A stretch of 64,000 nucleotides of DNA from assembly GCF_017908595.1 (NCBI RefSeq), contig NZ_JAGKTL010000002.1, positions 1 through 64,000 on the forward strand, read 5' to 3'. The DNA is from Rhodothermus bifroesti. GTDB lineage: Bacteria > Bacteroidota > Rhodothermia > Rhodothermales > Rhodothermaceae. The stretch's first letter is position 1. Every line of letters begins with the position of its first letter. The translations under genes were made by a program, and so were the position numbers. Below are positions 19,366 through 21,391 of this stretch, piece after piece. The notes under the pieces were generated by a model that was given only the letters and a program-made list of their open reading frames with translations, had not been told where the DNA came from and did not search any database.

Positions 19366-19698
19366 ATGCCCAAGTATAACAGCATCCCTGAAGTGATCGC
19401 TTCTTACAAAGAGCGATTTTTGCCGGATCAAGCCGCCGGTATCGAGGGTGTCGTGCAGCTTAACCTCACGGGTGAGGGTGGCGGTGCCTACTACCTTGTA
19501 GTGAAAAACGGTACTTTAGAAATCCATGAAGGCACCCATGAAAATCCTACCGTCACCGTCACAACCTCGGCCGAGAATTGGCTTAAGCTTAATAACGGCG
19601 AAGCTAACCCCATGGCCCTCATGATGATGGGCAAACTGAAAGTAAGTGGGTCCCTCCCAATGGCCACCAAATTTCAGTCTATGTTCCGTATGGGCTAG
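19366..19698 (+). CDS. SCP2 sterol-carrier-fold protein
   Basis: 110 residues covering a single SCP2 domain with no other part. Typical features are GGGAYYLVVKNGTLEIHEG, then ENPTVTVTTSAENWLKL and the terminal MMMGKLKVSGSLPMATKFQ, which lines the lipid tunnel. SCP2 proteins bind fatty acids, acyl-CoAs or sterols in the cytoplasm. Its closest context partner is the HSDL2-like SDR at 14043. In animals these two domains are fused. The stop is one base from the end of the convergent DUF2892 gene. Confidence 0.9.
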   Translation: MPKYNSIPEVIASYKERFLPDQAAGIEGVVQLNLTGEGGGAYYLVVKNGTLEIHEGTHENPTVTVTTSAENWLKLNNGEANPMALMMMGKLKVSGSLPMATKFQSMFRMG

Positions 19699-19699
19699 C

Positions 19700-19906
19700 T
19701 TACGTTGCTGCCTTACGGGTCGAAATGCCTAGGGCACGGTAGAGCGGGCAAGTGCCTACAAAACCCGTGACAAGGAAAATCAGGGCAATAAGGCCTAAAA
19801 TGAGGGCTGCAGCCCCGCTGATTTGTCCGGTTACGTAAAGCGCACCGATCACCAAAGCCAGAACAATACGGATCACACGATCCGCGGAATGCATGTTTTT
19901 ACGCAT
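19700..19906 (-). CDS. DUF2892 small membrane protein (YgaP-like)
   Basis: 68 residues with two transmembrane helices (about 12-30 and 33-51) and the family pattern MHSADRVIRIVLALVIG...TGFVGTCPLYRALGIST. The CPLYRALG segment is the hallmark of DUF2892, the membrane part of rhodanese YgaP. There is no rhodanese domain here. Role unknown. It is convergent with, and almost touches, the SCP2 gene, and no terminator lies between them. Confidence 0.88.
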   Translation of the reverse strand: MRKNMHSADRVIRIVLALVIGALYVTGQISGAAALILGLIALIFLVTGFVGTCPLYRALGISTRKAAT

Positions 19907-20054
19907 AGCGTTGTTTCATTTTAGCCTGTAATAACAGCATGAATCAACCGGCATAGCTACAAAGGGTGCCGCTAGCAGAGAGGCCGTAACGTAAAAAAAA
20001 CGTAACGATTAGCGTGGTAAATAAAATCTGGGAAGCTTTGCGTCTGAGAAGCGT

Positions 20055-20072
20055 TTCTTTGAGCTTAAAGAA
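20055..20072. promoter_or_regulatory. 18-bp near-perfect palindrome upstream of the Phd-like gene
   Basis: TTCTTTGAG/CTTAAAGAA is an inverted repeat with eight of nine base pairs matching. It ends 13 bases before the ATG at 20086. Phd/YefM antitoxins repress their own promoters by binding palindromes at this position, so this is a candidate operator. The role is inferred. Confidence 0.4.
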
Positions 20073-20085
20073 GCCTGTGTGAAGC

Positions 20086-20277
20086 ATGTTCATGCATAAC
20101 GCAACGAGCGACAAGCTGGCTGTTCCGGTTTCCCAATTACGTCGGCAGACTACGGAAGGCATCAAAGCGCACCTGGCGGTAGGTCCGTTGTTACTTACGC
20201 AGCGGGGTAAAGTAGTGGCCGTACTCCTAGATCCAGCCCTGTGGTGCCGGCTGCTGCAGGCACGCGACGCCGCGTAG
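20086..20277 (+). CDS. Phd/YefM-like antitoxin-type protein, no partner toxin seen
   Basis: 63 residues resembling the N-terminal DNA-binding part of Phd/YefM antitoxins: KLAVPVSQLRRQTTEGIKAHL followed by GPLLLTQRGKVVAVLLDPALW. The usual C-terminal toxin-neutralising tail is very short. No toxin ORF (Doc, RelE/YoeB or PIN) lies next to it. On the 3' side lipA ends 8 bases away on the opposite strand, and on the 5' side is the DUF2892 gene. It may be a stand-alone regulator or a remnant of a toxin-antitoxin pair. ATGs at 20086 and 20092 are both possible. Confidence 0.7.
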   Translation: MFMHNATSDKLAVPVSQLRRQTTEGIKAHLAVGPLLLTQRGKVVAVLLDPALWCRLLQARDAA

Positions 20278-20284
20278 CTTTGGG

Positions 20285-21268
20285 CTACAGGTGCCGCTCG
20301 GCATGATAGGAAGAGCGCACGAGCGGTCCACTTTCGACGTGGCCGATGCCTTTGGCTTCGCCGACTTCTTTATACCAACGGAAAACCTCGGGGTGCACAA
20401 ACTCCTCGACGGGGAGGTGTAGGCGTGTAGGCTGCAGATACTGGCCGATGGTCATCACGTCCAGCTGGATGCGGACGCAGTCGTCCATCACGGCTAGAAC
20501 CTCTTCTTGGGTTTCGCCTAGGCCTACCATGATGCCTGTTTTGGTGCGAAGACCGGCTTGTTTGGCCCGCCAGAGGACCTCTAAGGAGCGTTCATAGCGT
20601 GCTTGCGGCCGCACGCGTCGATACAACCGGGGAACGGTTTCTAGGTTGTGGCTGAGGATTTCGGGCCGCTCGTCGAGCACCAGTTGCAGTGCATCCCAGT
20701 TGCCCTGAAAGTCTGGGATGAGTACCTCAATGGTTACGCCTGGATTGAGCGCGCGGATTTGACGAATGGTTTCGGCAAAGAGGGCTGCACCCCCATCTTT
20801 TTGGTCATCGCGGTCAACCGAAGTGACGACGGCATGTTGAATGCCCATAAGGCGCACGGCCTCTGCTACGCGGCGGGGTTCGTCGGGATCGATCGGGTCT
20901 GGGCGACCTGTCTTTACGGCGCAAAAGCCGCAAGAGCGCGTGCAAACGTTGCCTAGGATCATGAAGGTAGCCGTGCCGGCCGTCCAGCACTCCCCCATGT
21001 TGGGGCAGCGGGCGCTCTGGCAGACGGTGTGCAGCTGATGGGTTTCGACAATATCGAGCACACGGCGATAGGTGGGGCCATACGGCAATTTGGCACGTAG
21101 CCAAGCGGGCCTCCGACCGCGTTCGTTGGCAACAGGTGGTGGATCGATGACCGGAAGTTCAAAAAATCCTCCATCGCCTTCTGGAAACAGCGGTTCTTTG
21201 GGTACGCGCTGCAATTCAATTTCACCAGGACGAAACCGGCGCGTTGTGCTTGGATGGTGTTCAGCCAT
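20285..21268 (-). CDS. lipA: Lipoyl synthase
   Basis: 327 residues from the ATG at 21268 ([12 protein letters not shown]); the open frame upstream is not family-like. Both iron-sulfur sites are visible: the auxiliary-cluster motif [12 protein letters not shown] and the radical-SAM motif CTRSCGFC. LipA inserts two sulfur atoms into protein-bound octanoyl groups, making the lipoyl cofactor of pyruvate and 2-oxoglutarate dehydrogenases and the glycine cleavage system. It is divergent from the lysine aminotransferase gene, with a 205-base shared upstream region. No lipB is adjacent. Confidence 0.97.
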
Positions 21269-21391
21269 GGAAAATTCTACGTTGAACAGCAAGACATGGA
21301 GAACCACTGAAAAGACGCTACCTGATTCGGCCAGGAATGATCCCGCACTGTTTGCTTTTGCTGCGCTTTGCGGATCTTTCAAGGTTTTGTC

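Follow-up and report, generated by a model that had tools for sequence, protein, structure and literature searches.

When an antitoxin gene stands alone, it may be the relic of a toxin-antitoxin pair or a regulator in its own right. Solo antitoxin homologues are common, and the two possibilities are hard to settle from one genome. Here, we ask which description fits phd1, a small gene of Rhodothermus bifroesti that encodes a Phd/YefM-like protein. For phd1, the regulator reading can be put to the test, given seven genomes that share one locus, selection that can be measured and an upstream element that is conserved. The features of the locus are given below. Coordinates refer to the window, which is the entire 64-kb stretch of DNA that was analysed.

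19366..19698, plus strand: gene for an SCP2-domain protein, beyond ygaP (profile match; syntenic in 7/7 genomes).
19700..19906, minus strand: ygaP-like divergent neighbour, encoding a transmembrane protein of 68 residues (PF11127; profile match and synteny).
19918..19947, minus strand: sigma-70-like promoter match, TTGATT-18-TAAAAT, before the ygaP-like gene (consensus match only).
20086..20277, plus strand: phd1, solo gene for a Phd/YefM-fold protein of 63 residues (open reading frame, profiles and predicted model).
20113..20274, plus strand: Phd/YefM core, residues 10-63, predicted order strand-helix-helix-strand-strand-helix (alignment and predicted model).
20285..21382, minus strand: lipA, encoding lipoyl synthase, convergent neighbour (longest open reading frame; the true start is probably internal).

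The 63-residue open reading frame of the initial annotation is confirmed, at 20086-20277 on the plus strand, and phd1 is a real gene. The intergenic region between ygaP and phd1 is 179 bp long. On the other side, the stop codons of phd1 and lipA are 7 bases apart. Our promoter search found no plus-strand match for phd1.

A protein search identified phd1 in all six other Rhodothermus genomes. The gene order SCP2, ygaP-like, phd1, lipA is the same in 7/7. A profile made from the seven phd1 proteins detected the gene in every genome of the genus, with E values of 1.3e-28 or better. Applied to the other 237 class genomes, the same profile gave a best E value of 8.5e-6, and 12 genomes matched at E 1e-4, all weakly (8.5e-6 to 9.4e-5). 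No syntenic phd1 orthologue was found among those 237 genomes. Relatives of SCP2, YgaP and LipA were undetectable at 14 weakly matching non-genus loci (L010-L012 and L027-L037), several of which are short (1.7-3.1 kb). A wider contig search with phd1 returned six loci, two from Rhodothermus and four generic. Judged by eye, the next open reading frame at three of the four generic loci is RelE/ParE-like (two loci) or PIN-like (one). The constant chromosomal position across the seven Rhodothermus genomes makes it probable that phd1 is a small resident regulator and not a random leftover. Note that one congener (G003, locus L004) carries ~280 bp of additional DNA between phd1 and lipA, for which Rfam, at gathering thresholds, gave no match.

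The description of the product as Phd/YefM-like holds for a match to the core, though profile scores are under the curated cut-offs. Briefly, PF02604 aligned with residues 13-58 of phd1 across profile positions 4-50 of 74 (E 5.4e-5). The score, 23.3 bits for phd1 and 23.5 bits for a congener, is below the 29.8 bits at which membership is assigned. The best phd1 locus of the genus scored 28.6 bits, when read through one stop. TIGR01552, the prevent-host-death model, gave 17.6 bits against a curated cut-off of 20.8 bits, and NCBIfam, at E 0.01, had no match for the phd1 of one congener. Positions 51-74 of PF02604 are unmatched, and the protein stops where the last core helix ends. Hence, the region with which antitoxins of type II modules neutralise the toxin is missing from phd1, in line with the very short tail noted initially.

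An AlphaFold model of phd1, from a seven-row alignment, had a mean pLDDT of 79.1 and a pTM of 0.54. Its elements are a strand (residues 11-14), two helices (15-18 and 23-32), two strands (35-39 and 42-47) and a final helix (50-62). Foldseek found no match to this model reaching E 0.001. The best was 2odk (E 0.016, probability 1.00). Most of the rows after it were Phd, YefM, RelB or PfiA-type antitoxins, and a few CBS-domain proteins were interspersed. With VIA-align, rows 1-23 were all antitoxin or toxin-antitoxin entries (Z 4.8-7.0), and the first unrelated row had a Z of 3.3. Individual scores were 7.0 for 2odk, 6.7 for RelB1 of M. tuberculosis, 6.5 for Phd, 6.1 for operator-bound Phd (4zm0), and 6.0 and 6.3 for YefM (2a6q and 7v6w, respectively). 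By itself, a VIA-align Z below 8 is weak. Nevertheless, the structural rows agree with the sequence profile, and this supports the assignment. We therefore predict, with moderate confidence, that phd1 has the N-terminal fold of Phd and YefM. Within the N-terminal segment, Arg19 (in SQLR) is invariant in 7/7 Rhodothermus phd1 proteins. In YefM, two conserved N-terminal arginines take part in operator recognition, according to PMC3920265. By analogy, Arg19 may be the counterpart of one of them.

How well is phd1 conserved? Between R. bifroesti and its congeners, protein identity is 35-40%. Equivalent values are 85-87% for SCP2, 63-71% for YgaP and 80-86% for a second solo Phd protein described below (six pairs each), and 82-90% for LipA (three pairs computed). 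Thus, phd1 is the least conserved of the genes compared, and set against SCP2, YgaP and the second Phd protein its identity indicates modest constraint. For the six congeners, dN/dS (NG86 values) was 0.086-0.392 across 15/15 pairs, with the L009 start taken 3 codons inside a longer possible start. Comparisons of R. bifroesti with the congeners gave 0.30-0.64 (five computable pairs, one saturated), with dS near saturation. Changes were in excess at third codon positions in 6/6 such pairs, which are non-independent (one-sided P 0.012-0.028). Furthermore, 19 of the 37 columns invariant among congeners are kept in R. bifroesti. Taken together, the low identity, dN/dS, third-position excess and kept columns lead us to regard phd1, from its sequence, as a fast-evolving yet coding gene. 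By alignment, the congener proteins have 11-12 extra C-terminal residues, and R. bifroesti phd1 ends before these. In each of the six congener proteins, lysine or arginine makes up 3-5 of the final 12 residues; the tail is mostly Arg/Lys-rich and variable.

We found no cognate toxin gene next to phd1, although one from an unknown toxin family is conceivable. The flanks are the ygaP-like gene and lipA in 7/7 genomes, and SCP2 lies beyond. Four further open reading frames overlap or adjoin phd1. None has a Pfam or PADLOC match, and we rejected them as toxin candidates. The initial statement that no toxin gene lies on either side therefore agrees with these searches. Elsewhere in the R. bifroesti genome, profiles for Fic/Doc, ParE/RelE and PIN, at E 0.001, detected nothing, and YoeB was found in none of the seven Rhodothermus genomes. 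Note that the genome-wide search covered the Fic, ParE, PIN and YoeB families. As a control for toxin detection, we used the six accessory Phd loci of the genus, five of which adjoin a PIN gene scoring over the Pfam cut-off. At the remaining accessory locus (L051, genome G001), with a Phd gene at ~1435-1803, no PIN gene is detectable and the antitoxin is kept; the related locus L049 (G005) retains PIN. The L051 gene looks like a relic of toxin loss from a Phd-PIN pair.

In R. bifroesti, PF02604 matches phd1 and only one other gene. Over the seven genomes of the genus there are 18 matches: seven to a second solo Phd gene, five to phd1 (the profile misses it in two genomes) and six to accessory genes. 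The second solo gene of R. bifroesti lies at C3:205913-206158 (L038 1501-1746), and encodes 82 residues with an Arg-rich tail. It exceeds both curated cut-offs (Pfam and NCBIfam). In 7/7 genus genomes it is flanked by a gene for an AAA ATPase on one side and, on the other, by a gene that we judged by eye to be amidohydrolase-like. The family occurs in 69/244 class genomes and 28/89 genera, all listed as one order. Outside the genus, 13 loci were examined from 62 matching genomes; the same ATPase gene was present at 13/13 and the amidohydrolase-like gene at 9/13. Hence, the ATPase gene adjoins the second Phd gene at all 20 loci examined (L038-L044 and L066-L078). The proteins have about 66-85 residues, a highly conserved N-terminal core and, mostly, a K/R-rich tail. 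At 27 solo loci (seven of phd1 and 20 of the second family), a search with four PIN proteins had no hit at E 0.01. The second family is far more conserved than phd1 and worth more attention.

We turn now to the DNA upstream of phd1, where two sequences were considered as an operator:

19990..20007, plus strand: CGTAAAAAAAACGTAACG, an upstream element kept in 7/7 genomes with the consensus CGTAAWAAANNNGTAACG; candidate operator/promoter element of the divergent region.
20055..20072, no strand assigned: 18-bp near-palindrome, arms TTCTTTGAG and CTTAAAGAA, 8/9 pairs, 31 to 14 bases before the phd1 start.

The palindrome drew attention first, as the supposed operator of phd1. It is present as described, with 8/9 pairs, but we could not confirm that it is special. 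Such sequences arise near chance frequency: ungapped 18-mers with at least 8/9 pairs number 11 in the window, and 20 first-order simulations gave 7.6 on average. The chance that one falls within the 179-bp intergenic region is P ~0.026, rising to 0.12 when spaced arms are counted as well. The exact palindrome occurs once in the R. bifroesti genome. Copies with two mismatches are found at three other places in that genome, and once each in five of the six congener genomes, always elsewhere. At the phd1 locus the palindrome is absent from 6/6 congeners, which is what the initial annotation had said would count against it. Because it is not conserved, and near chance frequency, we rejected the palindrome as the default operator. 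Three congeners (L006, L007 and L008) have other upstream inverted repeats at other positions, and by the criterion that identifies those the remaining three have none.

The 19990-20007 element behaves differently across the genus. Its 20-column span contains 14 invariant columns, a number matched by 1 of 10000 column shuffles, in a test that ignores clustering of gaps in the alignment. Among all loci compared, CGTAAWAAANNNGTAACG was seen solely at those of phd1. The element sits midway between the divergent ygaP and phd1 genes. In R. bifroesti, it is inside an imperfect inverted repeat (19985-20007; 7/8 pairs with a 7-base spacer) that has no counterpart in the six congeners. This repeat is formed by two copies of the 7-mer CGTAACG at a distance of 16 bases. 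In every congener, a single GGTAACG stands at this place. TGTACA, given as the core of the YefM operator in PMC3920265, is absent from the ygaP-phd1 intergenic region of all seven Rhodothermus genomes. On present sequence comparisons, the element is a better operator candidate than the palindrome. Alternatively, it could be part of the ygaP promoter, or the site of another regulator.

What, then, might phd1 do? In our preferred reading, which may well be right and to which we give about even chances, phd1 encodes a small toxin-free repressor that has the Phd/YefM fold, binds DNA at the divergent ygaP-phd1 region and belongs to the core chromosome of Rhodothermus. The protein would dimerise via its Phd core. 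The N-terminal arginine segment would then contact DNA between ygaP and phd1, most likely at the 18-bp element (19990-20007) and not at the 20055-20072 palindrome. In this way, phd1 would repress its own gene, the ygaP-like gene, or both. This reading draws on the single locus in 7/7 genomes, dN/dS of 0.086-0.392, the third-position excess, the structural matches, the conserved element and the failure to find a toxin. Weighing against it are the family scores below cut-off, the moderate confidence of the model, the modest constraint and an element that is perhaps that of ygaP. Note that conservation of phd1 in 7/7 genomes, with no toxin and under selection (dN/dS below 0.4 in 15/15 congener pairs), is what would be expected of a solo regulator derived from an antitoxin. 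The suggestion of a lone gene for a toxin-free regulator, made when phd1 was first described, is supported by its fixed locus and the failure to find a toxin beside it.

The lowest conservation of the genes compared, and the missing C-terminal tail of R. bifroesti phd1, could also be the marks of an old toxin-antitoxin remnant. If so, loss of the toxin preceded the radiation of the genus, and the antitoxin part has been drifting away, furthest in tail-less R. bifroesti. The higher dN/dS between R. bifroesti and its congeners fits such a history, though dS is near saturation, and toxin loss beside a Phd gene does occur in the genus, as at L051. Conversely, the frame is intact, dN/dS is well under 1 in every congener pair, phd1 is retained at one locus in 7/7 genomes, the upstream element is conserved, and the 27 solo loci have no trace of PIN in searches with four PIN proteins. 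We consider a remnant rather unlikely. The initial annotation raised the same idea; a toxin-antitoxin pair is possible as the ultimate origin of phd1, but the dN/dS values argue against simple decay within the genus.

Two other explanations make use of the protein in different ways. Phd-PIN pairs are patchy across the genus, and phd1 might act in trans, as an anti-addiction antitoxin that neutralises PIN/VapC-type toxins as they come and go. Indeed, trans and anti-addiction roles have been proposed for orphan antitoxins (PMC7192599, PMC2701414). However, the search of the R. bifroesti genome detected no PIN gene, and phd1 of this species also lacks the C-terminal region that Phd and YefM use for toxin binding (PMC4803016). 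In congeners, the tail that is present is mostly Arg/Lys-rich and variable. Such a role is improbable. The basic residues at the ends of the six congener proteins, and the K/R-rich C-termini of most second-family members read, would suit a small basic protein that binds nucleic acid with no specific operator. Here, the Phd core would dimerise and the Arg/Lys tail would bind, in association with the nucleoid or RNA. The tail is absent from R. bifroesti, however, and conservation of the upstream element points to site-specific action, making this explanation very improbable.

Returning to the repressor reading, it is conceivable, though we hold the idea only tentatively, that Rhodothermus has two toxin-free regulators with a Phd fold, one between ygaP and lipA and the other beside the ATPase gene. 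These would represent one domesticated class of Phd regulator and not isolated orphans. If true, phd1 would be specific to the genus and the second family widespread in its order, with Arg/Lys-rich tails mostly replacing the toxin-binding tail.

A literature search pairing Rhodothermus with toxin-antitoxin or antitoxin found no title on phd1, although absence is not thereby shown. Among known systems, Phd of phage P1 and YefM of E. coli resemble phd1 in the order of secondary structure, the core motif and, by analogy, a conserved N-terminal arginine, and are its best structural matches. Unlike these antitoxins, phd1 has no toxin neighbour that we could find, has no toxin-binding C-terminal region, and scores below curated cut-offs. 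The entry 2odk, a putative prevent-host-death protein of Nitrosomonas europaea from structural genomics, came top by sequence profile, Foldseek and VIA-align. Its E value in the sequence-profile search was 0.049, which is not significant, and it differs from phd1 in sharing only 26-31% identity. Solo antitoxins provide the closest parallel in gene organisation. Makarova et al. 2009 (PMC2701414) proposed that solo antitoxin homologues may regulate other operons, and reported over 50% of genes to be solo in the largest toxin and antitoxin families. In Klebsiella, orphan antitoxins were described as abundant in 2020 (PMC7192599). Like phd1, these are unpaired genes of antitoxin families for which a regulatory use has been proposed (PMC2701414, PMC7192599). 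They differ in that phd1 lies at one fixed locus in 7/7 genomes of its genus, with no paired copy seen there. Since regulators of this type were proposed already in 2009, phd1 would be a further case of a known kind of solo antitoxin.
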